DNA of 64,000 bases from a virus, in IMG/VR virus record IMGVR_UViG_3300007609_000014, positions 1 through 64,000 of that record; one strand, 5' to 3'. The translations under genes were made by a program, and so were the position numbers. The notes under the pieces were generated by a model. The model was not told where the DNA came from, ran no database searches, and saw only the letters and a list, made by a program, of their open reading frames with translations. The first letter of the stretch is position 1; every line of letters starts with the position of its first letter. This document shows positions 42,801-58,100 of this stretch, one piece after another.

Positions 42801-43468
42801 ACTGTTGATACGTCTGCTATCTGTGACGAACTTAAACTGGAAAAACTAATCCAAGCTGCGTCAAGTCCGGGTTCAGCATTTGCATCTGCTCCTGACACTG
42901 CTACCCATACAGCATCTTCGTGTGTAACAACAGCTAAGGGCGGATATATTTTATTTGTTTCCCATGCACCGTATGCAAAGAAACCACTGCCTAAAGGAGT
43001 CCATCCTTCAGACTGATCCGGGTCGTTTCCAATCTGTCCGTCGGCTGTGCTAACATAAGTGGCACCCAGATAATAGACTACGTCAAAAGAGTTGTAAGTT
43101 AAAGCAGAATCGTATTCGCCGCGAACATTGAATGTGTTTTGGACCAGGGAGTCTTCGTCCAAAAATGCACCAACCAGTATGTTTACATCGCCGCCATCTG
43201 TTTCTGCCAGTAATTTATCGCCTGGCTGTAAATTAATTGTTTTTGTGTACTCAAAGGAGCTCTGTGGCTCAACTTCAAATATCGTAAAGGCACGTGTGCT
43301 GGGCTCTGAAGCATCGTAGTAGCTGAGGGTTACTTTCACCGTTTCGTTTGGTGAGACGCCTTCATTAAGAACAGCAATAGTATGAATATTACTTTCTTTG
43401 TCTATTGGACTTTCATATACTACGGCTTGATTTTGACCGGTTACTTTCGTATTACCTAAAAATGACAT
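24866..43468 (-). CDS. Giant trimeric fibre protein, 6200 aa, with C-terminal S74 chaperone domain
   Basis: One uninterrupted frame of 6200 codons. Residues 1-110 are a virion-type N-terminal domain (MSFLGNTKVTGQNQAVVYES). Residues about 112-215 hold two short aromatic carbohydrate-binding-like units. The body is thousands of residues of beta-solenoid-like repeats: GDVTGNV tetrapeptide strings, ADDSS.IVD turns, STFN.VDINGGTIDGT.IG units, six W-[DN]-E...W modules, and from about residue 3000 onward stretches of LDVTG.ASLDGGIDVDGAFTVADTTGNV. The C-terminus from Ser6111 (SSLRYKENVQPIEGAL, then GLIAEEVEKILPNVVEYK and a Lys/Glu coiled coil) is a peptidase S74 intramolecular chaperone, which trimerises the fibre and then cuts itself off in the family. 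The Shine-Dalgarno is GGGAG. The start follows two in-frame TAA codons of the 43472-44023 gene. Confidence 0.85.
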   Translation of the reverse strand: MSFLGNTKVTGQNQAVVYESPIDKESNIHTIAVLNEGVSPNETVKVTLSYYDASEPSTRAFTIFEVEPQSSFEYTKTINLQPGDKLLAETDGGDVNILVGAFLDEDSLVQNTFNVRGEYDSALTYNSFDVVYYLGATYVSTADGQIGNDPDQSEGWTPLGSGFFAYGAWETNKIYPPLAVVTHEDAVWVAVSGADANAEPGLDAAWISFSSLSSSQIADVSTVGGGNVGASLSILDERLDTITTTEVPEDTGTDLDPTPGDEFSGQESAYFSRTRVRQSLAASGDLQYDPDTGTFTAFTLTEGDVEGFIDNRVTKPYLDALNVDADTLDGVDILQIARTDVNEIFEQDISVSGLIYGDLFGNVLGSDSTRVVDTSGATTIFNGDLVGNSTGFHTGDVNGNIQADDSSIIVNVDTREVTADLIGNVEATGGNSTFNNVNITGDLNVATTILGNLQGNVTSTGTSTFANVDINGGTIDGAVINASGELTAGTITAIGQIEAPLFIGEFQAAAGSTSRFDNIIVQGDLNFSTLSVQSDVDFGGDLTVGGGLLVSGDTEFQNANITGGIIQGVTLGSGSNPVDVVADDVIVNNNFSAPSANASFGNLTVTGALYANVEGSLEGNVISRDNSTVIVDAFNEVVNANLVGDVTGNVTGNVTGTLTGDVTGNITSSGVSTLATAEIAAANIDAANITNLIVDGAATFTGDLTFTTLNINSILVNNNIDVNGLSTLSSVDINGGTINNTSIGQDAAGARAITGTTITANDAFFGNLQGSLTGTMDGTVQGELYGSVYDASSSLIVDADTGRFIGTLQGNVDIDTGISNFNDVNVAGTFTVGSLSGNVAGDVIGNLIGDIYAQDQATKVFESGNGTTIPARLIGNVEGEVEGLFRGRAEGELYGDVFALDSSKIIDGFTGNLFGDLVGDVVGNITGTVIGNVDARTTASENGTSYFHNVEVTGTLDFPELDIAKINTADIEVLNDLDVTGTSSLSQVNIGAGIIENASIGITTPREAKFTTVDGTLITASTRFEGDIISRGTSSFVDIDLGGVMVGDVRGNVIAEDSSLIIDNLTKTIYGNLQGSFTGEATANIQSSGNSSFSGELNLLGATVRNAVFDLQGNIDGPGLSVFDSIQVREQILGDIRGSVVASDSTVMIDAITENIQGATITAATKFIGPLEGNVDIDEGTSFFNDLVVRGAIDLSGATGEITANVTGNLTGDVFAIDGTTKILETGNGFSPAILTGNVIGDVAGDITSTGISTFDTVSVATEIVGNLRGSVIASDSTVMLDALTENIQGNTISAAAKFVGDIEGNVNITTGTSVFNNIDVRGSIDLGSASGQITADVTGDLTGDIFNSASQKILDSGGAGIPAQYTGNVTGNVTGELIGDVYSANGAFRILDSGTDGSDAFLVAHVTGDIEGNVIGRNSTVIVDANSATVNADVNGNVTATSGGSTFNNVTVNRDLTVVGDLTVTGGLTAVQTTDLEINDNTITLNKGETGAGVSQTTSGIEIDRGTLTDVSLKWTENSGDDDGYWNFGNREVRANTFTADIGLVGDLTGNVFNADGTRILNNGSNAVPAAFTGNVTGNLTGNVTSNGFSSFNSIDVVTEITGILRGDVIGQDSSSIIEATSGNITGSVVRANTSFIGDIQGDITSSGISRFNDIEVTGDLQFAALNINDADINVDLTVGRNLDVDGISTLEVVDIKGGNINATNIGTTTPATIKATQLQVTDGDVIVDTGSINVANGNITGNIITARSRFVGDIEGDVSGTLTGSVSGDLTGNVIADDSTTILVDAASQRFRGDLIGDVTGDVTGNVSGDVQGNLTGSLFGDIFFPGGNTPVLDTGSATVAAQYRGNVIGDVTGDVTGDVTGNVSGDIRGNVIADDSTVLVDAGTNKFTGDITSTGTSIFNNLTVTGDLSFQQFDLDEVTVQQTLNVLGTANIDTINVSGGFIDDTKIGVTNPDTIRGTIISADSRFEGLLRGSLQGDVDGDLFGNVKADDSSIIVDYQQKRFNGSFVGDVFSADFTRILDAGTDGTDAVFTGDIEGNLDARGTGGKSWFEQLETTGDVTLDRATVNNDLTVDGDIIGNVNVTTGTSTFNAVDTDTITARAGAITGTTIGLANPAGIRGTTITADVRFVGDVTGNVDGDIVGNVIADDSSVIVNYQTKRVTGNLTGNVYSENNTVILENGTDGTDAVFTGNVTANNGTSNFTDITQNAGGTASLETVDVAQDLTVTGTVFGAVGDSVTRNTGEFSTVTTDGTVSVGGALNVTGDLTVSGTTTTVDTQQILLADNIITLNSDLDNLTAPTQNAGIEINRGSEDARRFIWDETLDKWTIEGERFDAGFVYSSGGFQGDITGDVTGNVTGNLTGNVAGNISGPGQSVFNSVTVQTEIEGTLRGDVNADDSTKIIDSITKDIDGHVITASNKFIGDIDAVSVDASGDSSFFNLEVNNNLIVNNLLGNVTGRLTGNLIGDVLASDGLTKVLESGNGTNIPALFIGNVTGDLDGNVTGDVVGDVTGDVDGNITGDVLGQDSGVLLDSYTRTLLGNVTGQVTGNVLGDITGDVRNSDGAVILDNGSNTVSAEYTGNVTGNVTGNVSGNVTGNILNADGTAIFTNGTDLLSATFKGDYLGQDGDVLVDSVDRRLIGDVTGDITGPGMSTFANVTVIGEVDSTLRGNVIADDSSVIIDNFTKDIFAREITASDMFYGDITGNVIANSGQSLFTDIDQNVGGVADLQTVNVAQDLTVSGTTFSDVTGDVTSAGISTFADARIITGTINDATIGLTTPNQIKGTTITAETRFFGDITGEVTGNVTGDLTGNVIGDDSSVILDYSAREVTADLIGDVYAPNSVRILDQGTDGSDAEFTGDIVGNIDARTRGGKSWFVNLESTGAVRLDTATVTNDLTVEGDLRGNIIGDITGDVYSTNGVRILQNGHTGNNAVFTGDVIGQIDAGDSTGTSFFNNLTSYGVLRADGGVIGDVTGSVDGDLTGNVLAEDYSTAIINSATREITGSTITADSGFVGSIRGDLYDGTVFANVDVSSVGGTSYFNDVSIAGSISFSDLSITDITITNNADIGQNLTVDGLTTLENATIKGGILDDVVIGGTTPRDITGVTITGTTGDITTVNADQININPGVGHQFTGDIEGDITSAGTSTFSGTINVSTASLILANDQISGDKINLGTISNANLAGDGTSNTITGYDFTLGATRTLDLTVGTVIIGDDQISGDSVDGGTISNSSLQGNDNTNSISGYDITLGNTKTLTVNGTTNVAAITATGLASLDGGINVDDAFTVADTTGNVVTSGTLGAGNTTVTGTLDVSGVASLDGGIDVDSAFTVADTTGNVVTTGTLAAGSTSVTGTLGVTGLASLAGGIDVDGAFTVADTTGDIVTTGTLDAANTAISGTLDVTGIATLDDQLSVGTSLDVGSTLDVVGATTLVSTLDVSDTVTLDSAANLRMYNGAGTPAIVFQINGDTGNTNIQGTLDVAGDTVIASNTASTTVGSGALIVGGGVGIGGDLNVSGDISFGGAINLQSLTLAAIANLNGGISVDGIFTVDGANGNVSTTGSLIAANTTLNGTLDTSGAVNINDTTSSTSNTTGALIVDGGVGIAENLNAVGNLSVDGTGTFGSQLTVNDNLVVTGTAAIGGNVQINNSSDFTIQNTTVQTVFSVDGEFGDTVISRDLEVGADTTIGGDLTVAGNFTVNGATTTINAAVLDVEDVNITVAKGVANRAAADGAGLTVDLGTDGVTTFTYGNATDKWSLSKGLIVPTVEAASGITADITGGLTSGASTAVDIVGSFSVNPAGATGSLDNVDIGANVPGEATFTNVITDGLVLSGLGNLETTAGDIKTVDGDIETTNGNIIAGGDITVTGNLSSNEITANTFLGSIEGTSAQFTGGVFVTENAGTPADITTTAGDFASLSGSFLTTSGDFRTTTGDITAQLITANNYFVGQLGDDDSTGGSRQAAYVTSLDTSGTLNVDGSSFLNNGLTVESTTRLKGNLNMDTGTVATFDGVTITGQFNVGAIEINDFTVQDTLEVGGQFTANAGAQFNGLMVSTNSQLSGATITASTVDSTPIGTNIANSGRFTSLTTTTGNLTVQDGSLTLNQGSITVTTGDIGITVGDLTVGGDVNADTDLYLGGYAYATANNNGFVGNIYGGGIGTEVLVLDPGDGSNAEYTGTVNGPIGTSAPNTGEFTTIDGTVIKASTRLEGDLTSTDVTISGGAIDGTVIGGTTAAAGTFNGLTATTVDIDGGSMDGVTIGANTVADATFNAATISNLTVTGGTGITNTPVGVGGRDAGEFTTLLAQNGITGVLTGDVREAGGTTMIDSTNNLITATQITATDAQGFKGNVQAISGTSSFATLNAALVNATSVVGPLTGQVNASGGGLSQFDNLTTTGTLTTSGALQVNSTISVTGAASLGSSVTIGGGTMSNVDISGGTIINTPIGTGGRSTGEFSSITVTNTINGNINVASGLSSFDEISADTIAAQNFNGGTYTGQVVAGSGSTMTGGTILSTTIGNDSGGANPIFGTNIRALNGFQGDINSTGLSLFDRISVNGSTASTITNLTGTNFTSNNVDIGGGDIDDTAIGQNGSALITGTIVKADVRFDGNVNQTSTARATDPTLQREGYFTSILVGALEVDEITINEDLAFDNVTIANDLEVQGNTRLIGTVDVNTTSITLNSGETEDGVGGSASPGSAGLVIDRGTEPTVSFIWNESTGLFTIGNENLQSGGTITAATLVGTDATVSGTGTINNLTVNNNAVLGTNVTINGGQISNTQIGTADPLVGNSNVYGSVITAHSEFRGDIDSTGNSDFNTATFSGLLTANGGISGDIAGTITAEAGSTMVNSTINSTAIGQTSPDDIKGVTIVATNEFQGPLVGAVEGNIDARTGTLDTNNIETTGGQSFFDGVRVNGLLDLPVGSLARISSLEVTGTVEFTNLEIGNALDVIGNFTVVGADDQNPKLVVNSTTGAMTLDGDMTVEGDAVVNTDFTVQGNTTLGSANTDTVSLNAKLSSSVFVDTDGQYDLGDSTNRFANLYVDTANINNDLTVGGNLTVNGAVTSVLTETVELADNIILLNSNETGAASENSGIEIERGTDPNKTFIWNELDDEWTIGTETFAAGVFRGDFNASDDTLIINHTLKALTISTIAASGNVTLSAGDLELTSGSATIGGTLGVTGETTLASATISDLTDNRIVLAGTAGTIVDDSNLTFNGTSFNVGGTNFVVTASTGDTAIAGDLDVTGAVGIDGDFDIATNKFTVASATGNTEIEGTLNVTGAATLGSLNLGSTLDVTGVTTFTNLINANGGIAVDTDRFTVADATGNTVIAGTLDVAGVASLDGGMNVDGAFVVADITGNVSTTGTLSVTGESTLASATVSDLSANGLVLAGTAGSLETDTNLTFDGSDFVVGNDRMVVNAVTGDTEILGAVTVSDGLTLDNAGSFTIQDASTPAQNVFQVAGSTGNTTISGTIDIDGEATLASATISDITVTHIPFAGASGSIISDADLVFTGTQLNIGQGNFTVNRSTGATFVGGTLTASGATTLTSLNTSGDLVVSSTTPSAASNEGALRVSGGVGVIGSVNIGTDLTVSGEVNISGGTILGTALGNSANPVSVVANTVNATGGITGSLTGSVTSGNATITGGTINSTPIGQGTNGANLITGTIIEATSQFKGNINSTSGNDFLANVSVSEGLSVTGNLSVVGTSNFQNDITVTGGTINNTVIGNTGPAQITGSTIEATGQFEGDIVSENTSSFNNITITGNLDNDSAGSVATFRDLQVSGDFTPGNLSVLNNLTVGGAVNFNDTFITLNANATGGASPTANMGLTVTRGSLGIKQFFWTETLGGAWTIGNEEMRAGSFTATTGFEGDLVGNVTGNVTGSADTADGFNSAVTVNLTGPVTGTATFQDGGDTATVATTIENNTVTLGTQTVGQYARTVSVTAGGGLSITAPNADDATDYVITSNATNNNTANAIVSRDSSGNFSAGVITASLTGNVTGNVTGDVTGQIDGSAGGTSEFDDLTASTATIDTITAGNASVQGSINHTEIGTGTGGARAITGTTVIANTGFTGNLTGDVLNGSGGVIVDSSANTITAQEIDGEVGANTPAAGTFTVLTETSSLRYKENVQPIEGALDKVTQLQGVTYDRKDGSSNDEAGLIAEEVEKILPNVVEYKDGEADGLHYTKIIAYLVESIKELKSEIKELKEKK
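24869..25138 (-). other. Peptidase S74 intramolecular chaperone domain
   Basis: Residues 6111-6200. The S-S-x-R-x-K-x-N-[IV] entry, the LDKVTQLQGVTYDRKDGS strand pair, GLIAEEVEKILPNVVEYK, LHYTKIIAYLVESIKELK and the terminal coiled coil are all present. In endosialidase-type fibres this domain assembles the trimer and is released by cleavage before a conserved serine; here the candidate is Ser6111 or Ser6112. Confidence 0.85.
25698..25822. repeat. 125-bp near-identical repeat, copy B (in the 6200-aa gene)
   Basis: Partner of 23157-23281 at a constant offset of 2541 bases. It encodes the same LTGPVTGTATFQDGGDT...TVGQYA segment near the end of the giant fibre gene. Confidence 0.9.
35682..35741 (-). 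repeat. 12-bp tandem repeats encoding TGNV tetrapeptides
   Basis: Five imperfect 12-base units of the form CC-[TA]-G-T-N-A-C-A-T-T-[AG] on the plus strand, read on the minus strand as Thr-Gly-Asn-Val repeats. Confidence 0.75.
35910..35993 (-). repeat. 12-bp tandem repeats (seven units)
   Basis: Seven imperfect units in register encode NVTGDLDGNVTGDVVGDVTG-type sequence. It is the longest such run I located. Confidence 0.75.
36369..36428 (-). repeat. 12-bp tandem repeats (five units)
   Basis: Five units encoding GDITGDVTGNVTGNLTGNVA. They sit just after a W-D-E...W module of the 6200-aa protein. Confidence 0.7.
37854..37925 (-). repeat. 12-bp tandem repeats (six units)
   Basis: Six units encoding GNVIGDVTGDVTGDVTGNVS. 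Neighbouring units differ mainly at third codon positions and at Asn/Asp. Confidence 0.7.
41478..41537 (-). repeat. 12-bp tandem repeats (five units)
   Basis: Five units encoding GDVTGNVTGNVTGTLTGDVT in the N-terminal third of the 6200-aa protein. Confidence 0.7.
42823..43135 (-). other. Paired CBM5/12-like carbohydrate-binding units in the 6200-aa protein
   Basis: Residues about 112-215. Two consecutive units follow the pattern aromatic-x4-Y-x3-D/L-x-V-V-x3-[GD]-x-x-[YW]-V-[SA] ... P ... W: GEYDSALTYNSFDVVYYLGA with EGWTPL, then GAWETNKIYPPLAVVTHEDA with AAWISF. This is the layout of short chitin/cellulose-binding modules. The assignment is by aromatic spacing only. Confidence 0.45.
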
Positions 43469-43471
43469 TTA

Positions 43472-44023
43472 TTAACAACTCCCAAAGATTAGTGCCATAA
43501 CTCGTGCTTGACGTCTTGCCCTTTGCTTTGTAAAATACAAATTTTCATCGCCCTCTCTGAGATCATCGGTTGTGTGGTTTTCGATGCTTGACACCTGACC
43601 ATTTAAGAAACCGTTGAATTCTCCATAGGTTGAATCTACAAGTTTGGAAGAGTCCTGTCCGAACACATCTCCTTGGAAATCACCAATAAATCTATCTGCG
43701 GATACAGTGCCCTCAACTTGGACTTTGTCTAGTCCATTGTCGAAATCTGTTCCTACTAAAATTGCTCCGCTAGATTCTGCCAGTCGAACGTTGCCGTCAG
43801 TGAATACCTCTATGCTGGGTACTCCTGATTGCTCGTTTACTGAAAAAACTGAGCCTTCTAGCGTGTCTGTAATTTTGACCACATTTCCAGAGTCCCCTTG
43901 TATGCTGAGAACACCATTGTCGTCCATTACTGCTAGAATTGAATTGTCAGAATTTGTGCTTTTGAAGTCAACATTCTGCGTTTGCAGCCCGTTTTTGACC
44001 ACAAAACGTTTCGTATTCGCCAT
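43472..44023 (-). CDS. Small fibre N-terminal module protein, 183 aa
   Basis: The start MANTKRFVVKNGLQTQNVDF (ATG 44021-44023) is preferred over an in-frame TTG at 44041, because GGGGAG lies ahead of the ATG. The sequence is the usual N-terminal module of marine T4-like fibres: DNSILAVMDDNGVLSIQGDS, FSVNEQSGVPSIEVFTDGNV, LVGTDFDNGLDKVQVEGTVS. It then reaches a NHTTDDLREGDENLYFTKQR linker and stops soon after, at RARRQARVMALIFGSC. In longer fibres that linker leads into more repeats, so this protein looks like a detached or cut-short N-terminal part. It is in the same frame as the 6200-aa gene, separated by TAA TAA. It is first in the 40-kb run. Role inferred: virion attachment or fibre base. 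Confidence 0.65.
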   Translation of the reverse strand: MANTKRFVVKNGLQTQNVDFKSTNSDNSILAVMDDNGVLSIQGDSGNVVKITDTLEGSVFSVNEQSGVPSIEVFTDGNVRLAESSGAILVGTDFDNGLDKVQVEGTVSADRFIGDFQGDVFGQDSSKLVDSTYGEFNGFLNGQVSSIENHTTDDLREGDENLYFTKQRARRQARVMALIFGSC

Positions 44024-44057
44024 CGGTTCCACTCTCCCCAATTAGGCTATTGTAACG

Positions 44058-44065
44058 TATTTAGC
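44058..44065 (-). promoter_or_regulatory. Late promoter-like box (GCTAAATA)
   Basis: The minus strand reads GCTAAATA, one mismatch from NATAAATA, in the 86-base gap upstream of the ATG at 44023 (34 bases away). It would drive the four-gene run ending at 4089. Confidence 0.45.
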
Positions 44066-44109: not shown

Positions 44110-44790
44110 TTAAGGTATAGACGAATCACCAATAACATCTACAGCCAGCATCAGCGTTTGTGATACTCTGTACGTTGTGGTGAATTCTGTGAGGTTGGTT
44201 GCTTTCAGTCGCACAGTGTTGTTCACTATGTCAACGTCAAATTCTGCTATAGGATCTTCGGTGGTTGTTAGCACACCGAACTCGGTTGATGTAGCTGTGG
44301 TATTGTTATGAGCAACTAGTAGTTCTGTGATTTGGCGCTCGTTGTTGTCTTCGTCTTGTGCTTGAATAACAAATTTTGCACTGCCAAATTTTATTTTGTC
44401 AAATGTAGCAATTACACCGGAACTGGCGCTCGATGTTGAATCATCGTATACTACTGTTTGAACATTACCTTTTAACTGAAAGCCGTCATTGAATTTGATA
44501 CTTTCTGTAGCTTCATCGTATTCAATATTTGTGGTACTAGAACTTACACCGCCTTTAATAAAAACCAGTTCGTTTTCTTCACCATTTAAACTTAATTGAT
44601 CTGGAGACAGCCAAGCTCTGTTTCCTTCTGTGTCTGAGGTTAAGAAGTAGCCATCGGCTGGAGGAACGCTGAGATTTGGTTCTGAACTGGCAACGTCAAG
44701 AAAAGAGTATCTGTCCGGACTCTTTACGTCGGCTTCAGTGGGTGGTATTGCTTTTACTCTATTGCTTAATAATCCAATGCCTCTAGACAT
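44110..44790 (-). CDS. Virion/fibre-associated protein, 226 aa (second member of duplicated pair, copy 2)
   Basis: The start MSRGIGLLSNRVKAIPPTEA, then RYSFLDVASSEPNLSVPPAD and YFLTSDTEGNRAWLSPDQL, matches the 193-aa protein at 45205-45786 (IGLLSNRVK..P, RY.FLD...EP...VP, G.R.W). The N-terminal module is recurrent in marine T4-like phages; its function is not known to me. The C-terminal half is beta-rich (VVYDDSTSSASSGVIATFDK) and unlike its paralogue. The ATG overlaps the 113-aa gene by 8 bases (ATGTCTAG). Possibly a fibre adaptor or fibre-base protein. Confidence 0.7.
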   Translation of the reverse strand: MSRGIGLLSNRVKAIPPTEADVKSPDRYSFLDVASSEPNLSVPPADGYFLTSDTEGNRAWLSPDQLSLNGEENELVFIKGGVSSSTTNIEYDEATESIKFNDGFQLKGNVQTVVYDDSTSSASSGVIATFDKIKFGSAKFVIQAQDEDNNERQITELLVAHNNTTATSTEFGVLTTTEDPIAEFDVDIVNNTVRLKATNLTEFTTTYRVSQTLMLAVDVIGDSSIP

Positions 44791-45124
44791 CTTCGGTTTC
44801 CAGGAGACTCAAACTTAATCTTACATCAGATTGAGGTGTTGGACCAACCGCACGACACTTAATACTGTCATTGGCGTTAACAACGAGTCTTCCTAGAATT
44901 GCACTGTTACTTTGATTTCCTCTAATACGAAAATCTCTCACAAGAGGTAGTTCCTTGCCTGTGAGGCTGTTGAAATAACTGAACGTTACGTCATAGTCTT
45001 CTGACGAAGTGTTTACCAGTTGAGCATTAATAACAATTGTAGTAATAGTACCAGGACAGGTATAAATGATTTCATTTACACTTGTAATTACTGTGTTAAT
45101 CGCTTTAAATGTATTATTAGCCAT
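44783..45124 (-). CDS. Small beta-sandwich-like virion protein, 113 aa (first member of duplicated pair, copy 2)
   Basis: MANNTFKAINTVITSVNEII is homologous along its length to the 112-aa protein at 45779-46117: shared VNEI-type start, YT.P...T.I...AQ..N, F..F.S.T, F.I.GN...S.I.G.LVV and L.LSLLE. The size and strand pattern suggest a compact beta fold, like the N-terminal 100 residues of the 6200-aa protein (TIAVLNEGVSPNETVKVTLS). Shine-Dalgarno AAGGA. It has its own promoter-like box at 45163-45170 behind the terminator of the previous unit. Function unknown; a fibre or virion accessory role is inferred from the neighbours. Confidence 0.7.
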   Translation of the reverse strand: MANNTFKAINTVITSVNEIIYTCPGTITTIVINAQLVNTSSEDYDVTFSYFNSLTGKELPLVRDFRIRGNQSNSAILGRLVVNANDSIKCRAVGPTPQSDVRLSLSLLETEDV

Positions 45125-45162
45125 TCATTAATCCTTGACTCATATTCTAATGTGCTACTAGG

Positions 45163-45170
45163 TATTTAGT
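45163..45170 (-). promoter_or_regulatory. Late promoter-like box (ACTAAATA)
   Basis: The minus strand reads ACTAAATA, one mismatch from NATAAATA and the same CTAAATA core as the box at 44058-44065. It lies between the terminator at 45188-45218 and the ATG at 45124, where a new promoter would be needed. Confidence 0.45.
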
Positions 45171-45187
45171 AGAGTTTTTTCCCCTGG

Positions 45188-45218
45188 AAATAAAAAGTGG
45201 TTTCTTAATAGAAACCAC
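45188..45218 (-). terminator. Rho-independent terminator
   Basis: Minus strand: perfect 8-bp stem GTGGTTTC / GAAACCAC with the six-base loop TATTAA, followed by TTTTTATTT. The TAA stop of the 193-aa gene lies in the loop, so the stem begins inside the coding sequence (GGT GGT TTC). Confidence 0.85.
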
Positions 45219-45786
45219 CATCTACGTTATGCTCTGTTCCTTCAATTACAATGTTACCTTTCACTACCAAATCATTATTCACTGTGGTTGTTCCAAAGCT
45301 AGAGCCAATGTTAATGTCAGTGCCTTGTCCGGCAAAGTTTACAATTTCAGCAACAGTGTCAATCAAGTTAAATACAGGATTTTGTGTAGTGAGATTGTTG
45401 ACCGATACAGTACCATCTACACGCAATCTTTCGCCTAAGTCTGTCGAATCTGATGCACCAACAATGATTTGATCTAAAAATGTTTTAGTTCCTTCAAATT
45501 CCTGATCCCCGTCTAGGGTAACGAATGCACTTGTATCAACATTAAGTCTACTATCAAAGTCGACATTTAAACCGTCTCCAATAACAACCCAACGACGTGT
45601 TCCGTCTACACCTGATGCGGCAAGACCTGTGTCTTTGTTATTTTGAAGATCTTCAGCAAGACTGACATCTGGAACCCCCCAATCTGGTTCGGCGTTCTCT
45701 AAGTCAAGAAAATCATAACGATAATCTTCTGCTAGAGTAGCTGGGGTCTTTTTGACCCGATTACTTAGTAGTCCAATATTATGCAT
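45205..45786 (-). CDS. Virion/fibre-associated protein, 193 aa (second member of duplicated pair, copy 1)
   Basis: MHNIGLLSNRVKKTPATLAE, then RYDFLDLENAEPDWGVPD and GVDGTRRWVVIGDGL, is the same N-terminal module as the 226-aa protein. The C-terminal half carries fibre-type beta repeats (LRVDGTVSVNNLTTQNPVFN, GSSFGTTTVNNDLVVKGNIV). The ATG overlaps the 112-aa gene by 8 bases (ATGCATAA), with TTGGAG as Shine-Dalgarno. The gene ends in the loop of a strong terminator. The role is inferred to be fibre-base or accessory, from repeats and neighbours. Confidence 0.7.
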   Translation of the reverse strand: MHNIGLLSNRVKKTPATLAEDYRYDFLDLENAEPDWGVPDVSLAEDLQNNKDTGLAASGVDGTRRWVVIGDGLNVDFDSRLNVDTSAFVTLDGDQEFEGTKTFLDQIIVGASDSTDLGERLRVDGTVSVNNLTTQNPVFNLIDTVAEIVNFAGQGTDINIGSSFGTTTVNNDLVVKGNIVIEGTEHNVDGGFY

Positions 45787-46117
45787 TTAGTGACTCCAAT
45801 AAGCTCAGTGTTAACACTAGCGAATCATTTGTGCTAGCCACTGTTCGTAAACTGTTTGATTCTTCAACTACCAGCTTACCTGTGATAGGGCTGGTAGCAT
45901 CATTTCCTGGAATTACAAATCCTTTTAACAGTTCAGTTTGGTCCGCTGTGAACGAATCAAAGTGAAGAAAGTCAACTGCTACAGGTGTTTCCGTGATGTT
46001 TGAGATCTGCGCCATCAAAATAATCGCAGTCTTGCCTTCTGGAACAGTGTAGACAATTTCGTTAATGTCTGTAATCTCTTGTGTTACTGTTTTAAATACA
46101 TTTAACGGTTCGGCCAT
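45779..46117 (-). CDS. Small beta-sandwich-like virion protein, 112 aa (first member of duplicated pair, copy 1)
   Basis: MAEPLNVFKTVTQEITDINE, then IVYTVPEGKTAIILMAQISN, ending LTLSLLESLNA. It is a paralogue of the 113-aa protein, with conserved positions spread over the whole length. It lies 17 bases after the 4253-aa gene, with AGAGG as Shine-Dalgarno in that gap, so it is probably co-transcribed with that gene. Function unknown; no catalytic motif is visible. Confidence 0.7.
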   Translation of the reverse strand: MAEPLNVFKTVTQEITDINEIVYTVPEGKTAIILMAQISNITETPVAVDFLHFDSFTADQTELLKGFVIPGNDATSPITGKLVVEESNSLRTVASTNDSLVLTLSLLESLNA

Positions 46118-46134: not shown

Positions 46135-49100
46135 TTATTGTAGTGACAATATGTATGGTGTTAATACAGCAAACAGTGATCTATCAAATGTGTCACCAGT
46201 GATAGTACCTGTTGCTCGTTCAATAGTCAAGCTGTTACCAATCTTGAAGTCACCTGTCTGGTCCGTACTTGTAAAGTACACCTTACCTTCGTTACTTTCA
46301 ACAACTTGCTGTTCCTGGATTGGCTGTCCACCTTTGTACGGTACTGCTTCATTAATGTTCGTACCTGAACCTACCCACTCAAACGTCTGTCCTGATGCAG
46401 TAATCAAACTGGTCTGGTGGAATGTAGCTCTTTCGCCAATCTTTGGAATTCCTCCTGTAGCAATGTTAACGTCAAACGTTACTGTGCTTGAGTATCCATG
46501 CTGTATTAGGTTTACAATTACCTTAAACAGATCTTCAATTCTGTCTGACTGTGCAGAAGATGCCGCAGGAAGTGATAGATCCTGTGCAACTGCTGTTTGC
46601 AACGGACTTAGTTCAATGTTAATAACTGAGTCTTTGCACAACTCTCTTATATAGTCAAACGTTCTTACAGTAGCTTCCTTAGTTGGTACTGGAATCTGTA
46701 AGAATCCGCCATCGAAGTATTGCTCTGCCGCTAGATGCGCCTGTGAGTTACCCAAGTAGAATATATCGTAGCATACTGCATCTACAATGTATCTGATATC
46801 TCTTTCACATCTTTCTTGTACATATGCATAGTTAGCTTCAATAAACTCTGTAACTGACTGCTTGATTAGAGCTTTCTCATTTTGCAGAGTGTTATGTGCT
46901 GTTACCAACTTGCTGTTAACCCAACTTAGATCTGGCTGTTCTTCTGGATTAGAAGAGTCTCCAATATCGCCTTGTGTATTATCAATCCACTTGATGATAT
47001 CTTCAATCAAAGAACCTGCTTTGATCGATGCCGCATCGCCGCTTGGTGATCCGCCTGTAGTATCTTGGGTTTCCACAGTGTTCTTGGCTGTAATAGAAGT
47101 GTTACTGGCAACGCTCTGTACAATTTGCTCTAGATACTCATAAGCTGCCTTTGTGGCATTGATTTCTCTAATGCTTCCTAGCTGGTTAACACCTTCGTCG
47201 GAGAAGTAACTTCTACCTACAACAGTTGTTTCTAAGTTGCCGCCGTATGTCAAATCGTAACGCACAGCGTCCACAATGTAGTTGATATCTCTGCGGCACT
47301 TGGTTTCTAGATAAGCAAAGTTTTCTTCAATGTATGTAGTAACCTGCTTGACCAAGTTAGCACGCTCACTGATAAACTGATTGAAAATAGCCTGCTTGGT
47401 TCTATTATCATTATCACCAACTACCCAAGTAATTAATGGATATTCTTCAGTTGGTGCAGAACTGTTATCTTCAATAATTGTTATGATATCATCTATAAGA
47501 CTGCTAGCTCTTAGTGCACCAGACGCATTTGAAGCATTACCAGTTGTGTCTTGTGTTAATCCATCAACTGTGTTTAGATCACCTTCTGCATCTGGATTAA
47601 GTAGAGCAACTTGTTCTAACAAGCCGCTCAGATAGTTGTAAGCATCTAAGGTTGCTGTGATTTCGTCACTCTCAGTTCCAAGCTGTTGTACACCTGCATC
47701 TGAATAATATGCACGACCTGCAACTAGAGTTTCTAGATTGCCGCCATATGTTAAGTCATAGTTTACAGCGTCTAAGATATATCCTAAATCACGTGTACAT
47801 TTACCGTCACGATCATAATCGCCGGCTACACCTGGATGATTATCTTCAATGTACTGTTTAACTTGTGCAATAATCCAAGCTCTATTCTTTGCAATGTTCT
47901 CGCGTGCATTGAAGTAGCCTGGCAGATATGAATCTACTGCATTTTCCGTATTTTCATAGTTGTTTGGACTAGGAATAGTAAACGAACTAGGTACTGCACT
48001 TATACCGTCATTGATAATAGTGTTAATTAACGCAATATTACTGTCAATGCTGGCTTTGGCAGTATCAGCATCTGCATTTGTTTGAATAACTAACGCTTTT
48101 AGCAATGTTCCAAGATATGTAAATGCTGCTGTAGTTGCTGCCTTCTGTTCTGCTGGAAGAACTCCACTGCTCTGTCTCAAATAAGAACGTCCTGCTGTGA
48201 TCGAACGGAAGTTTGATCCAAATACCATGTCATAGCTGACTGCATCAATTACTAATCCAGTGTCTCGCTCACAAGTTTCTCTGTCATAGCCTAACAGTGG
48301 GAAGTTTTCGCTAATATAAGCCACAACTTCCTCTACAATGAACTGTCTGTTTGCCACAATAGCATTAGCAGCAATTGCATAATCTGCATTACTAGCATTG
48401 CCTGTTCCACCTGTTGGTGTTGGTAGACTTGGCACTGGAGCACTGCTTACTAGTGTTGGGTAAACACTTAGTGAACCGCTTTCGTCACCTGTCAACGTAT
48501 CTGCGGCGTTTGTGGTAAATGTTCCGCTAACAGTAATCAATGTAATTGAAGTACCGTTTTCCTTCTTGACTTCGCCACTTGCTCCGCTGTTCAACTGTGT
48601 AATGATCTCACCTTCAACAACGTTAGCCGGAGCATTCAGTGTGAGTGTAGTGTCAGGACCTGTGTCAAGTATCTGAATGATGTCATTCATTCTGTCTTCA
48701 ATTGCCTGCTTGGCTCCTGCATCACCTTCTGAACCTGTTGCCTTGGCATAAATCTGTCCGCCCATTCCTTTGAAGAAAGGTGAACCGTACCATATTTCTG
48801 TGGTATAGTTGCCAGTTAGGTCAAGTTCAACTTCGCGTGTGGTTGCAGTAGCAAAGTCTCTTTCATAATCTTCCTGCGTTACTTCAATGCCGTCTAGGAA
48901 GAACTTCACGCCTTGAGCATAGCCTTGGCCGCCTACTTGCAGTGTGCCGTTTTCATTCTGACCAAACACCAGCGGATGTCTTAGATCACCGTAGTACACA
49001 TTAGAAATGTCATCCTGGTTAAATCTATACTTAGCGCCTGGCTCTAGCTCAATGACTGGTCTTTCAACTCCGTCAATGTGGAATGAACCTGTCTTAGCTA

Positions 49101-52100
49101 GACCGTAGCTGTCATCTTCAACTGTAACTGTGAACTCTTTGTCTACTTGTTGTATTCCTGAAGCTGACAGTGTTTCAGCTGATACTGCATCTGCCGCAAT
49201 CACTTTCAAGAACTGGAATGCTGCCAGTGTTGCTTTCTTCTGCGATTCTGTTACAACAGCAGCACCTTCTCTGTAATAAGAACGTCCTGCTGTGATTGAA
49301 CGGAAGTTTGATCCGAACATCATATCGTAACCAATAGCATCTAGCACAAGACCAATGTCACGCTCACAGGTTGCTCTGTCATAACCGATTAGCGGGAATG
49401 TTGTGTTAATAAACGCAACTGCTTCTTTTACGAAGAACTCTTTGTTAGCCTGAAGAATATCTTTGGCTTTTCTGCGATCTTCTGTGATGCCCACTGGATC
49501 ATTGAACTGGATTGTGTCAAGCTCTGCAAGAGCCGCACCAGTAATCACAGCACTTAGTTCGCCTGTTGCACTAGCTACTACAGTGTTAGAGTCTGCTGTG
49601 TTAAATGTTCCACTAACTTCAATCAACTCAACTGTTGTAGCGTCAGTAACATTGTCTTTGACTCTACCAAATGCTTTAGTACCTGCTTGTCTTACAATTT
49701 CATTCTTGCTCAGTGTAACTGGTGTGCTGAATGTAACTGTTGTAACCAAACCATTAGCCATTGTGCGAAGAACATCTTCGAATCTAGCCAACAGTCTTGC
49801 GTACTCTGCTGTATCACCGTATACTTTGGTGGTTGTTTTTGCATTCTGAATTGCTTCAACTGGAGTAATTGCTCTCTTAGCTGGAGTGTCGAATGTTCCA
49901 GGTGCAACTGTAGCAGTGAAGAACGGATCTGTTAATACTTTCTTAACTTCGTCTCTCAAGAACTCAATGGCTCTGATTGTTTCTGGAAGCTGTTCTTCAA
50001 ACACAACACTTGCGCTTGCACGATAATAACTGCTTCCAGCTAACAGTGACTGATAGTTAGAATTCATAATCGTGTCTTCTAGCACAGCATTTAGAATCAA
50101 GCCAATGTCTCTTGAACACTTGAACTGATCATATTTGAATGTTGTGTAACGATCTTCGATAAACTGTAGCACTTCTGCTTTTGCATTTTCTTTGTTAGCA
50201 AGAATGCTGTCAAAGTCATTTTGCAATGCAGTTGCGGCCCAGTCAATTGCTGGAAGCTCTTGATCTGGAAGATTGTTAGTGCCTTGCTCGTCAATTGTGG
50301 CAATAACAATTGCCAACAGTGTGCTCAATCTGCTTGCTTCGATTGTGGTTGCAACGGCACCTGAACTGTCTCCTGTATCTTGTGATTCAGTGTTCTTGGT
50401 GCTAGTAACCACTGTGTTACCAAGCACAACATCGCTCACCACATCTTGCAGTCTCTTGTATGCTTCTAGTGTAGCACGAGTTTCTTTTTCGTCACTGCCT
50501 AGTTGATTGATTGCGAACGAGAAGTAGCTTCTTGCAACTTCACGAATAGCACTGTTACCACCGTACAATACGTCATAGCTTAGTGCATCAACAATGAATC
50601 CTACATCACGCTTACAACGTGTTCTGTCATAGGTTCTTTCTGGGAAGTTCTCTAGCAAGAATGCATTTATACTTGTTCCAAACGATGTGGCTTCAGCAAA
50701 GATTGCATCACCTGCGGCAACATACTCTGCGTCTGCCCACGTGTATGACGGATAAGTTGGTGTGGATGGCAAGCTATCTGTGTTACCATCTGTGATTACA
50801 GTCACAATAGTGTCAATGTATCCGTCGATGCGTGTTTGTTCTGTTGCACCTGCCTCTCCTGAAAGGATATTTGCAATTAATGTCTTGAGATTATTATAAG
50901 CATCAATTGTGGCAGTAGTTTCTACCGAGTTAGTGCCTAGCTGGCTAGTTGTGCCTACAAAGTATGCATCGGCTGCAATGTTTGTAGCACTGTTACCGCC
51001 ATACAGTACGTCATAGCTCAGTGCGTCTAGGATAAATCTTAGATCTCTTTCACAGCTTACTTGATTGTATGACAATTGTGTATTAATATAGTTAATTGTG
51101 GAATCAAGTATTCTGTGCTCGTCGTTTCTAACCTGTACACGAGCATTAATTAGATCTGAATCTGCAAATCCTACACTTGGAAGAACTTCAACACTTAGAG
51201 TGTCTAGTGTACCAGTTCGAACTGCATCTTCGATCTCTTGTAGTAATCCGTCGATCAAATTACTTTCAACTGCTGTTGCGTCTGCACCTGATAGATCGGC
51301 TGTTAATGTGTTAGGGGTAGTACCTGTAATTGTCGGTGATACCGATGGATTAACAAGAACCTCTTTGGCTTTGTTTGTTAAATGTGCATATGCATCTGCT
51401 GTGATAGTTCTTTGATCTGCTGGTAGCTGATCAATAGTAGTACCTTCAAAGTATGCTTGCGCATTCAGTCTTGTACCTAAGTTACCACCATACAACACGT
51501 CAAATGTAATACCGTCGAGAATATATTTGACATCTCTTTCACAGCGTGTTTCATCGTAATCCAAACTTGGATCATTAGTTCCAATAAACGCTTTAACTTC
51601 AGCAACAAGGAAGTCTTTGTTATTAATAAGTCTGTTGGCAGCCGCAATTGAATTAGCAATTACTCTTCCAGCGTATGCTGTAGTTCCTGGATAGCTTGCT
51701 GGACCAATGTTTCCGTCTCCGTCTACGTCAAAGTTAATAGCATCTGCAACACTTGCACTATCACCTGGAACTTCTGCACTTACTGAACCATTTTCAATGA
51801 TATCAAGCACTTCGTCAAAGTTAGCAGTCAGTCTATTCACTGCATCTGTGTTAGCAGTACCGTCACTTACTTTGAACTTAACGTCTGACAGTTCAAGAAC
51901 TCTAGCTTTCAGATATCTGATAGCATTTAAAGTAGCACCCTTTTGATTACTGTTTAACAGCTCTGAATTGCTACCTCTTTGATACGAAATGCCTGCGTAT
52001 ACAGAATTGTAGTTAGTACCAAGTACCATATCAAGTGCAACCGCGTCAAGAATCAATCTGCTGTCTCTGCGACACTTGTCTTGGTCATATGTACCTACAA

Positions 52101-55100
52101 GATTTGAGTTAGCTTCAATGAATGCAATAGTGTCTGTGACAATTGCATCTTTGTTTGCTTGGATTAAATCTTTGGCACTGATTACTGCCGCTGTAGCGTC
52201 TGTTGGGTTTGGATATACCACTGTATCAGCCGCAGATGGTCCATTTGAGAAAATATCAATGATTTCGTCAATTGCATCATCTACACGCTTGATAACTTCA
52301 TAGCTTGGGAAACCAGTTGGCTTTTCAGCTATTGCGTGATTCATAAACTTGTTAGGCATATAGAATGTAACACCTGGATACTCAGTGAACACGTGAATGT
52401 GTGCACCTGCACCTAGTGTAGCATTTGATCCGTCGTCTGCCAGTTCTGCAGCCGCTTGATCGGTGTATAATGGATAGTAATATCCTTCACCGTTGCCCAT
52501 TGGAGTAATGTTGTCAGTACCGAACACATAGAAAGGACCTGTGGCAGTTTGATTGCCGTTAACATCGCTTAGAGCAAACATTAACTTCTTAAGCTGTTGA
52601 TATGCAGCAATAGTAATGTCTTTCTGTGCATAGTTTTGAACTTTGTTAGCATTGGCTCTTTGATATGCAAGACCTGATGTAACGCTGTTATAGTTTGTGC
52701 CCATAGCAACGTCAAATGCAGTACCAACAGTTATGATACCTACGTCTCTTGCACACTTATCAATGTCGTATGTAAAGTTAACAAATTCGTCATTTACATA
52801 TGCAACCACTGTGTCTGCAAGTCCTGTCTTAGCAACAGCTGAGGTAACCGCACCTTCACTTGCACTAACAAATGTGTGTGCACTTGTTTCAGGTGATGTT
52901 CCTACATTCACGGTGATTGTGGTTTGTGTAACATTTTCCACAGTAAGATCTGTATTGTATGCTGCTTCCTTGGTTCTTGGATGACGCAGTACGTTTAGAT
53001 TGCCGTCACTGCCACAAGTAAATGCTAGACTTTCTTCCTTCAGTCTAATCTTGTCGCCATACTCGTATGGATGTGGACCAATTTCCAGTGTCATAATACC
53101 TGTTACAGGATTGTATGCGGCGCCATATGGAGTAAATGTGTTCTTGGCAGTTTCTTGTGCAATTTCCACGAAATCTCTCTGTAGATTTGCATCTGCCCAA
53201 GTGATAACAGGATATTCTTGTACAGGAAGTCCTGTGATATTGCCAACCTTAATTACTTCGATAATAATATCAATCAATGCTTGGTATCTAGTTACTTCGG
53301 CTGCTGATCCAGGATCACTTTCGATTTTTTGTACTAGATTATGCCCAGGGGTAGGTGTAACTTCGTCACACACTACTATCTTAGCAATTAGATCTTTTAG
53401 ATGAACATATCCGTCTATAGTAGCATCAGCCTGCCCTTCTGCTAGCTGATCAATTGTGCCAACAAAGTAGCTCTTGGCTGCTTGTACAGTTGCAGAATTA
53501 CCACCATACAGTACGTCAAAGTTAATAGCATCGATAATAAATTCTACATCACGCTTGCACTTTGATTCTACATAATCTAAATTAGGATAGTTGTTATTAA
53601 TATACTGTACAACATCTGTGGCAATAAATTCTTTGTTGATTCTCAACTGATCTTTTGCATCAGTTTGATCTTGTGTTGCATTAGCTGGGTTGTTTAGCTC
53701 AATGTTTTCTACAACACCTGCGTCATCTGTTGAATCGTATGTGCTGTCATATGTAAATGCACCGTCAAGAATGTCAAGAACAACATCAATCAGTCTGGTC
53801 ATTCTTGCACGACCTTGTGTACTCAGCTTGGTTAGCTCATCTACTTTTTCTTTTAGATGTGCAATAGCCGCTACAGTTTGAATCTTCTGACCTGTTAACA
53901 CTTCGCTAGCATTAGCTCTTTGATATGCAAGACCTGCTGTGATAGTGTTGTAGTTGGTGTTTAACACTGTGTCAAGATTTACAGCATCAAGAAGCAATTG
54001 AGTATCTCTTAGACATTTATCTTCGTCATACGTGAAGTTTGTGAACTGATCGTCAATCCAAGCAATAATCTCTTCTTGGATAAATGTTCTATTGCCTTGG
54101 AGCAAAGTATGTGCATCTTGTGTGTTTTGAGCTACGCCTACAGGCATTACAAAATTCAGTGCATTAGCTGCTTGTCTAGTGCTGGTTGCGCCGTTTTCGA
54201 AAATGTCAATCAGTTCGTCGAATGCCGCAGTTGCACGAGCTTTACCAAGATCTGAAAGTCCGGAAATTTCAAGAACTTCGTCTTTTAGATATTTAATAGC
54301 TGCCAGTGTTTGTGGAAACTGCTCTGCTTTTACTTTTGCAATGCTTGCACTACCACGCTGATAGCTTAATCCTGCAATAATTGAATTGTAGTTTGTGCCT
54401 AGTGCAACATCCATCGACACTGCGTCTAGAATTAAACCTACGTCTCTAGCACATACTTCTTCGTCAAAGCGGAACTCACGGAAAGTAGTATCAATAAACT
54501 TAATTGTCTTAATAGTCAAGTTCTGTCTTTCTGCAAGTATCTTTTCTCTGATTTCGTTGCCTGCCGCACTTTGATTTTCAAAGTCTGGGTCAATGTTATC
54601 AATAAAGTCGTTAATGAAATAATTTCTTCTTACAACACTAGACAACACTTCAAACAGCTTTTGAATTCTCAAAATTTCTGTAATTGTTGTTGCAGTTGTG
54701 CTTGTATCCTGTGCAACGAAGTTTGGATCGTTCTGATTTTGCGTAGGAACAACCCTGTTTGAACGAAGCACGTCACCTATTCTATCTTCTAGCAAATCAA
54801 GTGCGTCGCCTGTTGCTCTTCTCTGTAGATCAGGAATTACAATTTGTCCTCTGCTGTTATAATATTGCTTGGCAGCCGCGAAACTCTGGCTGTTGCCTTT
54901 GTAAAGAGTGTCATATACTACTGCATCGATAATGTAGCCTAAGTCTCTTTCACAAGTTGCTTGATCATATGCAAAGTTTGATTCGATAAAGAAAGTAACA
55001 TCTTTTTGTAGATCGCCTTTTTCTCCTTGCAGAATAAGATGATCAGTATACAATCCTTGATTAGAGAATCCAACTGGGTAAGCAATGTTGGCATCATAAC

Positions 55101-58100
55101 CGTCTACCCAAGTTAGTACTGGCTCTTCTTCTTGAGGTTCTGAACTATCATTTTCGATAATAGTGATAATATCTTCTACCAAAGATCCTGCTCGTGTAGC
55201 TGCAGATGCACTATATGTTGCAACGCCTGATCCTAAAACTTGATCAACTGCTGTTTGCAATTCTGTAACATCAGTGTTAGCACCGATCTGTCTTACTAAA
55301 TCTCTTAGGAATCTGTACGACTCAACAGTGGCAATTACTTCTGCTCTGTTAACTCTTACATAACCCCTGTTAATGTACTCTTGATAATTTGCTCCGTCAA
55401 CTGATTGTGTAAGAGCTTCATCTGTGTAAAGTTGGAATGTAGTTTCGTCTACAACTTTAACAAAGAATGTCTGTGCATTTAGACGAATAGGACCATTTAG
55501 GTCAAACAGTGTAACAGTAAATGCATCTCTTAGGCCATGCTCTTCTTCGGTGCTAATCGTGATTGGGTTACCTAAAGTAACACTGGCAATATCTACGTCT
55601 ACAAACTGAGATCCCAGTTGATCAACATCACCGTCTGCGGCAGCTACTACGTCTGAGAAGTAGCTTCTTCCCGCAATAAGTGTTTCTAGGTTGCCGCCAT
55701 ATGTTAAATCATAAACCACAGCATCTAGAATATAGCCAATGTCTCTTGAACACTTTCCGTCGTCGTCGTAAGTTTCTGAAACTTGTGGGAATTCGTTTTC
55801 AATATATTGCTTGACTTCTGCTGTGATAAAGTCTCTGTTGTTGTCAATGTTAGAAATAACATTTGCAATAGTCGTATCACTGGCATTACCTGTACCGCTT
55901 GTAGGTGTTGGTAAATCGTAGTCTGAAGGGACTCTGCTGATACCGTCTTGGATGATATCCACAATTAGATTCATGTTGTCTTCAATTCTTTCAATAGCTA
56001 CAGTTTCTGAAACAATTGCTTTCATTAGGTCTTTTAGGTGCAAGAATGCACTCACAGTAGCTGCTTTTTGCTCTGGAGGTACAACAGTGTCGCCAATAAC
56101 TTCAGTTTGTTCTACTGTTACAGTGCCGCCGTAGCCGCCGTAGCTGGTAGTTTCGCCGGTTGTAACTGTGGTGCTATTGCTACCAACATTCAATGTTGTT
56201 GTGGTTGGATCACTGGTAATCAATGTGCCAGTAACACCTGATGTTGTAGTAAACAGAGGTCTGTCAGTAGCAACACCTTGTAGGGCACCGCGCAGATACG
56301 AACGTCCTGCTGTGATAGAACGGAAGTTTGATCCAAACATCATGTCATAGCTGATTGCATCAATTACTAATCCCACATCTCTTTCGCAAATTTCTCTGTT
56401 ATAACCCAGCAGTGGATAATTTTGATTGATGTATGCGATACCTTCAGCAATCAAATAATCTTTGTTAAGCTGAATATTTGTTTGTGCTCTGGTAATTTCC
56501 GGAAATACTCCAGTTGGAGCTGGAAACTCAATTAATCCGCTAGAGTCGTAATCTGCAAATCCATTTTCAATAATTTCTAACACAAGATTAAAGTTAGCAT
56601 CAACTCTTTCGTATGCTAGTCTGTCAGCGTCTGAACTGGCTGCACTTGGAGGATCAAGCAATGCAAGGACTTCTGTTTTTGCATACTCTAATGCTGCTAG
56701 CGTTTCTTCTTTTTGGTCTGAAATCACAAGTGCTGCTGTTGAGCTACCATATGTTCTACCTGCCACAACACTCTTATAGTTTGTGCCAAATACCATATCG
56801 TCGATAACTGCTTCGATAATCAGTCCTGTGTCTCTGTAACACTTGGCCTGGTTAAACTCCAGCAACACATAATTTGCTTCCACAAACACAATTGTGTCTT
56901 GTACAAGATTGTCTTTTTCTGCTACAATAGAGTTGTAAGCAGTTAGTTCGTCACTAGTAACACCTAGTGCAACAACATCTGGCTCTACTTCTGTTGGAAG
57001 TGTTTCACCGTCTGCAATATAAGTTGTAGTGATACCAATCAGTGTGTCAATTTCTGTGCCTTCAGTGGCAGTAGCATCTGAACCGCTAGTGTCAACTGTT
57101 TCTGTGTTGCCTGTTGTAGGCGTTACACTGGTGCCTTCTACAATATCTGAAGCAACTGCTGCTAGGTGATTATATGCTGCAACGGTCTGTTCTTCTTGTC
57201 CGTCTACTTGGCTGGCAGCACCTACGTAGTATGCTTTTGCTACTTCTACTGAAGCAGTATTACTGCTGTACATTAAGTCATATTGAAGGGCATCTACAAT
57301 TAGTCCTACATCACGTGAACACTTGTCTGAATTGTAAGTAAATCCTTCCCAAATACTTCCAGGTGTAGCATTAGCAACTTCGTCTGCGATGTATGCAATA
57401 ACTTCTGCTTGCAGGAACGTTCTGTTGTTTTCTAATCTTGCAACAGCGTTTTGCTCGTTTGAGCTTGAATTACCAGCTGCCGGAATGTTAAGGGTGGTCA
57501 GATAGTTGTTTGAGATATAGTAAGCACTGGCTTGCTGATTGTTTAGCAAATCAATAATGATGTCAAACAATCCGTTTGAAGTTGTAGTAAGTCCGGTAGG
57601 TACTAGACTAGCAACTCTGCCCTTTACATATTCAATAGCATCAGCAGTTTGTGTTTTTTGATTGTTAATCAAATATGTGCTATTTGCTCTAGTGTAAGCA
57701 AGACCTGCTGTTAGACTTCTGTAGTTTGATCCTAGTGCCAAATCATTTGCGATTGCGTCAAGGATTTCACCCGTGTCTCTGCGGCACTTGGCTTCGTCAA
57801 AGTCTGTTTGATAAGTTTCTTTAACAAAGTCAACCGTGGCTTTCTGAATGGCTTCTTTCTGCGCAAGAACCACTGTTCTTGCTTCTTGCAATTCTGCATC
57901 TTCGGTTGTGAATGTAGGTCCTGTGACAACACCTTGTCCTACTTTGATTGGCGTTGCATCTTTAATAGTGTAAACTTCTTCCGTGTCAGAGAACACAGCC
58001 GCATTCTGAATGTACGGAATATTGGTTAGATCGTTGAAGATCATTGAGCTTCTGTTTACGTTAGCACCTGCTGATGCTGAGAACAGAGCCTCTGAATAAC

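Follow-up and report, generated by a model that had tools for sequence, protein, structure and literature searches.

The stretch of DNA analysed here (64,000 nucleotides, hereafter the window) is part of a 68.8-kb IMG/VR virus record whose tail and head genes are T4-like in type; all window coordinates given below refer to the minus strand. A block of genes encodes, in minus-strand order, proteins of 1264 and 371 aa, a 4253-aa tail-fibre protein (U; 46135–58896), two successive pairs of small proteins (A1–B1 and A2–B2), a fibre-like protein of 189 aa, or shorter if an ATG start is used (C; 43472–44041), and fibres of 6200, 2243 and 4681 aa. In the first copy, a 112-aa jelly-roll protein (A1; 45779–46117) is followed by a 193-aa short fibre protein (B1; 45205–45786), and in the second a diverged 113-aa member of the same jelly-roll family (A2; 44783–45124) is followed by a 226-aa short fibre or connector-like protein (B2; 44110–44790). 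The coordinates and sizes of both pairs, as given in an earlier note on this DNA, were exact on re-check, and the likeness of the pairs in gene order, N-terminal homology and 8-nt overlap was confirmed by sequence comparison. U is assigned as a tail fibre on the basis of PHROG matches and carries many helical repeats (KC.RD.G.I.DA..YD...G.N..S..AG..Y); a Pfam match of U to the phycobilisome family (PF00502, E = 4e-8, above the cutoff) is probably a false positive arising from these repeats. The 6200-aa fibre ends, as read by eye, in a peptidase-S74-like chaperone sequence.

The A1 and A2 proteins share 41% identity over 107 aa (E = 2e-22), and both match the profile phrog_1276 over its N-terminal ∼110 positions (E = 7e-9 and 1e-4, respectively). 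This family, annotated as being of 'unknown function', is matched by 81 of the 83 members of the A family. Pfam returned no usable match for A or B, and a sequence search with A against solved structures gave chance matches only. An AlphaFold2 model of A1, built with 83 sequences, is an all-beta jelly roll with a pLDDT of 95.4, and A2 is expected to share this fold. The best solved matches to the A1 model were modest (TM about 0.5–0.65), and comprised Ena spore appendages (7a02, E = 1e-4, TM 0.56), nucleoplasmin cores, a trimeric phage cement protein and a pentameric phage capsid protein. Since the matched proteins form rings or fibres, the A1 fold is consistent with an oligomeric docking protein.

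Further information on A comes from the Synechococcus phage S-SCSM1, whose homologue (SSCSM1_27, hmm E = 4e-35) is labelled a virion protein and is flanked on one side by a 'long tail fiber protein (virion protein)' gene and on the other by one labelled 'tail fiber protein (virion protein)', the trio adjoining neck genes. The label is that of the record annotation as opposed to the mass-spectrometry supplementary table; a virion proteome of 45 proteins has been published for this phage (PMC9602691). Because the record labels 48 genes as virion proteins, against the 45 reported by mass spectrometry, and because the labelled set includes the three non-structural proteins named in that publication (PMC9602691), the label very likely records detection. 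A role for A outside the particle, as a folding or assembly chaperone for B, would suit a small gene that lies beside, and is probably translationally coupled with, a fibre gene, an arrangement that we infer to resemble that of some fibre-assembly proteins. However, such a role seems highly improbable, in that the virion label of the S-SCSM1 homologue is consistent with the mass-spectrometry proteome (PMC9602691), and jelly rolls are typically found in proteins that are structural or oligomeric. It is also conceivable that copies of A build a neck fibre of the pilus-like or bead-chain kind and that B forms the tip of this fibre, given that Ena subunits are the best PDB fold matches of A, that cyanophage A-1(L) has a gp82 with a pilus-like N-terminal fold and a gp81 whose repeats run head to tail (PMC10966104), and that the S-SCSM1 trio is next to neck genes. 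The Foldseek matches are modest, however, and also include nucleoplasmin and capsid decoration proteins, the A-1(L) neck-fibre chains are absent among the 50 matches listed, and the upstream gene in S-SCSM1 is annotated as a long tail fibre, which together make the neck-fibre reading improbable. With its jelly-roll fold, a homologue labelled as a virion protein and a position between two fibre genes, A is the better candidate for an adaptor.

Diverged A-like proteins were also found before other fibres among the surveyed loci (L numbers). These comprise a second A-like gene in S-SRM01 (L098:13994–14320), which follows glycan-synthesis genes, genes at L011:13533, L106:2625, L110:1705, L117:3137, L136:527 and L149:11291, and two of the three A-family genes of L166 (13088–13414 and 15920–16246). 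The first 120 residues of the 6200-aa fibre (43106–43468) aligned with these A-like paralogues by hhalign with a probability of 81% (E = 1e-5), as opposed to only 17% in a profile–profile comparison with A itself, and may represent an A-like domain, possibly the third at this locus, in cis. That an A-like protein and a fibre N-terminus repeatedly occur together is the strongest general hint that A could have a docking role. A more speculative extension, less likely than not, is that A and the B N-terminus make up a general fibre plug-and-socket of T4-like aquatic phages, with two orthogonal sockets evolved in this lineage and a possible third on the 6200-aa fibre; if true, one virion would carry two different fibres in a controlled way via mutually specific sockets.

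The B proteins are 39% identical over their first ∼67 aa (E = 5e-10), and no similarity between them was found beyond the first ∼65–67 residues. The earlier note had stated that only their C-terminal halves differ; the N-termini are indeed common, but the shared part amounts to ∼65 residues, roughly one third of the protein instead of half. Family alignment together with the B1–B2 comparison (E = 1e-7 for the B1 region) delimits N-terminal anchor regions at residues 1–70 of B1 (45577–45786), where the anchor is common to relatives, and residues 1–66 of B2 (44593–44790). The C-terminus of B1 matches the virion structural/short tail fibre families phrog_6002 and phrog_4527, and B1 is otherwise a plain stem, in which a search with the cap profile found no gp9-like cap. 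In B2, residues 118–214 (44149–44439) form a C-terminal beta-sandwich cap resembling T4 gp9. This cap has a match at E = 3e-8 to phrog_967, annotated as 'baseplate wedge tail fiber protein connector', is found by the cap profile at E = 2e-31 and has T4 gp9 (1qex, E = 5e-7) as its best PDB match in Foldseek, with a whole-chain TM between B2 and gp9 of only 0.39; in the monomer model of B2 the sandwich is confident and the N-terminal anchor disordered. Since the cap gave no match by sequence to T4 gp9 in the PDB, the link between the two rests on the fold and the PHROG profile. The same cap also ends the B fibres of S-T4, Sf-CH8 and ACG-2014f, and makes up nearly the entirety of the 114-aa B proteins. 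The gp9-like cap is therefore frequent at fibre tips and is not confined to connectors. Two other proteins of the window have C-termini reminiscent of B fibres: the fibre-like 371-aa protein (59060–60175) ends in DIDGGSF, similar to the NVDGGFY that ends B1 (MDGGYY in relatives), and the 2243-aa protein (18134–24865) ends in LVIKDSSGNVIWGN, close to the RLVIYDSAG.VLWG at the C-terminus of many B fibres in relatives (L137, L140, L146–L163), and so shares a C-terminal tail with them.

In most relatives B is the fibre itself, with lengths of 119–2517 aa, and its N-terminus comes in a few types, being LLS.rvKk..RY.FL.L..aEPdlGvP in the group to which the window belongs and MPxLISQ or MPYIVG in pelagic groups. 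When mapped onto the A tree, the N-terminal type changes once, compared with 20–34 times under shuffled labels, and the C-terminal cap is gained or lost 10 times, compared with 22–33. The B N-terminus follows the A tree, while the B C-terminus is swapped repeatedly. Since A and the B N-terminus are adjacent, their co-inheritance could be due to linkage alone; linkage would explain part of it, and the pattern is also that expected were A a socket and the B N-terminus its plug.

The overlap between the A and B genes has the sequence ATGCATAA in the first pair (45779–45786) and ATGTCTAG in the second (44783–44790). An overlap of identical length had been taken as a mark of duplication, an argument that is rejected here because single-copy relatives carry the same junction: the 8-nt overlap was found in 70 of 88 loci with the same B N-terminal type, most of the 70 being single-copy, and is the commonest junction. 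The overlap, for which the A1/B1 junction has the ancestral state, and the GLLSN motif do not favour duplication, both being ancestral. A proteins end in Leu-Glu-(Ser/Thr)-x-(Asn)-x-stop, and a Leu codon ending in G before the last Glu creates GGAA or GGAG 7 nt upstream of the start of B. Pattern scanning and codon statistics identified such Shine–Dalgarno-like sites inside the last codons of both A1 (GGAG for B1, 45794–45797) and A2 (GGAA for B2, 44798–44801), and the pattern GGARN7ATGNMTAR occurs twice in the window, precisely at the two A/B junctions, with 0.26 occurrences expected. The G-ending Leu codon is present in 69 of 79 overlapping pairs, as compared with 7 of 41 gapped pairs and 224 of 1031 other A Leu codons (Fisher 2.5e-14 for overlapping versus gapped pairs, a value that is overstated since the loci are related). 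It seems that the 8-nt overlap puts the Shine–Dalgarno sequence of B within the last codons of A, and translation of B may begin from inside A, through re-initiation or coupled initiation.

An intrinsic terminator-like hairpin (45196–45219) follows B1, and two further loci (L099 and L101) fold a hairpin at the same place although the sequence there differs. The late promoter motif of T4 is TATAAATA. A motif of this type, CTAAATAC, is present upstream of A2 (45162–45169) and is kept in L099 and L101; it is present also upstream of C (44057–44064), and further T4-type late motifs precede U (58965) and the gene at 239–997 (1020). Four of the seven minus-strand NTAAATAY motifs of the window fall within 462 intergenic bases (p about 9e-8). 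A sigma-70 promoter between the copies was considered and discarded, the scan of this region returning no site and the T4-type late motif providing a better explanation. Given the similarity of these motifs to the late promoter of T4, each pair is probably a late transcription unit of its own; the earlier proposal of a terminator and a promoter between the copies, and of separate transcription units, is in this respect supported by the hairpin and the late motif, with the putative promoter being of the late rather than the sigma-70 type.

Where the gene upstream of A is readable, it is in nearly every case a fibre that ends in ..YTSTDQ.GNFRIGD...GTI.GR.F.KSLF..TPFILAL, which in U corresponds to a conserved C-terminal domain (about 46138–46362). 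The long fibre, A and B together, in this order, make up a conserved trio, a module that is already known but unnamed; the tandem arrangement is new. A1 conforms to the arrangement of the phrog_1276 family, with a conserved-C-terminus fibre before it and B after it, whereas A2, although followed by B2, is preceded by B1. Relatives of C, of the type MANQNFKVKNG, come after B in cyanophages. Copy number and synteny in relatives agreed with the tandem description: the A–B–A–B order, with an 8-nt overlap in both pairs, was found in all seven IMG/VR relatives (L003–L009). Wider scans, tblastn of phage records and annotated cyanophage genomes brought the collection to about 155 loci with a true A. 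Of those in which a complete B is followed by at least 400 bp, 123 have a single pair and 8, all from the window lineage, have the tandem. The tandem A–B pair is unique to the window lineage among the surveyed loci. Values of dN/dS were 0.05–0.17 in most comparisons with relatives, two being saturated and one without amino-acid change, indicating that all four genes, and with them both copies, are kept by purifying selection where the ratio could be computed.

The sisterhood of the two pairs, put forward in the earlier note as the phylogenetic test of duplication, was neither recovered nor rejected. In a tree of A plus the B N-terminus, sisterhood was 9.1 log-likelihood units worse (AU p = 0.187), with pair 1 grouping with L106/L110/L117 (92/85) and pair 2 lying near L112. 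In a tree of A alone, sisterhood of A1 and A2 had an AU p of 0.494, and a clade with L016 scored above the free tree. The better likelihood of separate placement, the lower similarity of A2 than of A1 to other A proteins, and the ancestral nature of the overlap and GLLSN motif, which deprives duplication of their support, lend some weight to acquisition of the second pair from another phage by recombination into the fibre cluster, a sizeable though lesser possibility. However, A2 lies on a long branch, so its placement is unreliable, the AU tests leave sisterhood standing, the two pairs adjoin one another in the ancestral position, with U on one side and C on the other, and an A2-specific scan of viral contigs returned two already-known contigs only, with no A2 donor lineage. 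On balance, acquisition appears less likely than an in-place duplication followed by rapid divergence of A2.

Given duplication, the pairs would be paralogues derived from a virion module that is conserved among T4-like phages of aquatic bacteria. The ancestral unit would have consisted of the long tail-fibre gene U, then A, a 110-aa jelly-roll virion protein, then the fibre B, with the ∼65-residue N-terminal anchor of B presumably docking onto A and its C-terminal part being exchangeable. Translation of A and B would be coupled, the last Leu-Glu codons of A encoding the ribosome-binding site of B next to the 8-nt start/stop overlap. In the window lineage the A–B unit would have been doubled between U–A–B and gene C, the copies placed under separate transcription by the terminator and late promoter, and the B proteins diverged to two short fibres, the plain stem of B1 and the gp9-like capped B2. 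Doubling and divergence would therefore most likely have given two distinct A–B complexes, presenting or connecting two different distal parts. Overall, it appears reasonably likely that A docks the B N-terminus and that this lineage doubled the pair and gave the copies different tips, hence two distinct A–B complexes; the virion probably carries short fibres of two sorts, both built on one kind of socket. The earlier idea of an adaptor duplicated so that two fibres can be attached thus holds as far as the pairs are homologous, both are maintained and A is an adaptor candidate, but not in treating B as part of the adaptor. B is the fibre itself in most relatives, so the two short fibres are probably B1 and B2 themselves; of these, B2 alone has a tip like T4 gp9, which is a true fibre connector. 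The docking interpretation gives a testable role to a family annotated as of unknown function, for which IMG/VR contains several hundred candidate relatives, and marks the boundary between a constant socket and an exchangeable fibre. It also points to a probable ribosome-binding site for the next gene written into the final codons of a structural gene, and a lineage with two diverged socket–fibre pairs provides a natural test of the carriage of several fibre types by phages.

Several known systems invite comparison. In the long tail fibre of T4, gp34 is proximal, gp35 is a monomeric knee and gp36 is a 221-aa trimer (PMC3004832), and the succession at the present locus of a large fibre gene, small proteins and another giant fibre gene recalls the gp34–gp35–gp36–gp37 series. 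This likeness in gene order and sizes, the conserved C-terminus of U before A, and the resemblance of the B2 cap to the domain that attaches the long tail fibre in T4 (PMC3004832) would accord with U, A1–B1 and A2–B2 being joined end to end as one jointed long fibre in which each A is a joint, instead of forming two fibres in parallel. Such a chain is nevertheless rather unlikely. The 372-aa gp35 differs from a 112-aa jelly roll, the gp35 and gp36 families do not occur among the PHROG or Pfam matches of A1, A2, B1 and B2, the separate promoter and terminator do not suggest a fixed 1:1 stoichiometry, and B1 is a plain stem that lacks the U-type C-terminus preceding nearly every other A. As regards gp9, to the C-terminal domain of which the T4 long tail fibres attach coaxially (PMC3004832), B2, and not B1, has the C-terminal antiparallel beta-sandwich; B2 does not, however, show the whole architecture of gp9, with its gp7-bound N-terminal domain and middle domain, since the N-terminus of B2 is the A-linked anchor, and gp9-like caps end many ordinary fibres, with ten tandem copies in the B fibre of L139 (L139:4498–10071). 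The Ena spore-appendage subunits and the A-1(L) neck-fibre proteins are, like A, small jelly-roll or pilus-like subunits (PMC10966104), with no sequence similarity to A found. A further comparison is with the phrog_1276 proteins of cyanophages (SSCSM1_27 of S-SCSM1, and those of S-T4 and S-SKS1), which belong to the same profile family and have the same long fibre–A–B order. However, the cyanophages examined have a single true-clade A, usually with no overlap with B, and S-SRM01 and S-SKS1 each have one further diverged A-like gene elsewhere, whereas the window has two adjacent copies, each with an 8-nt overlap.
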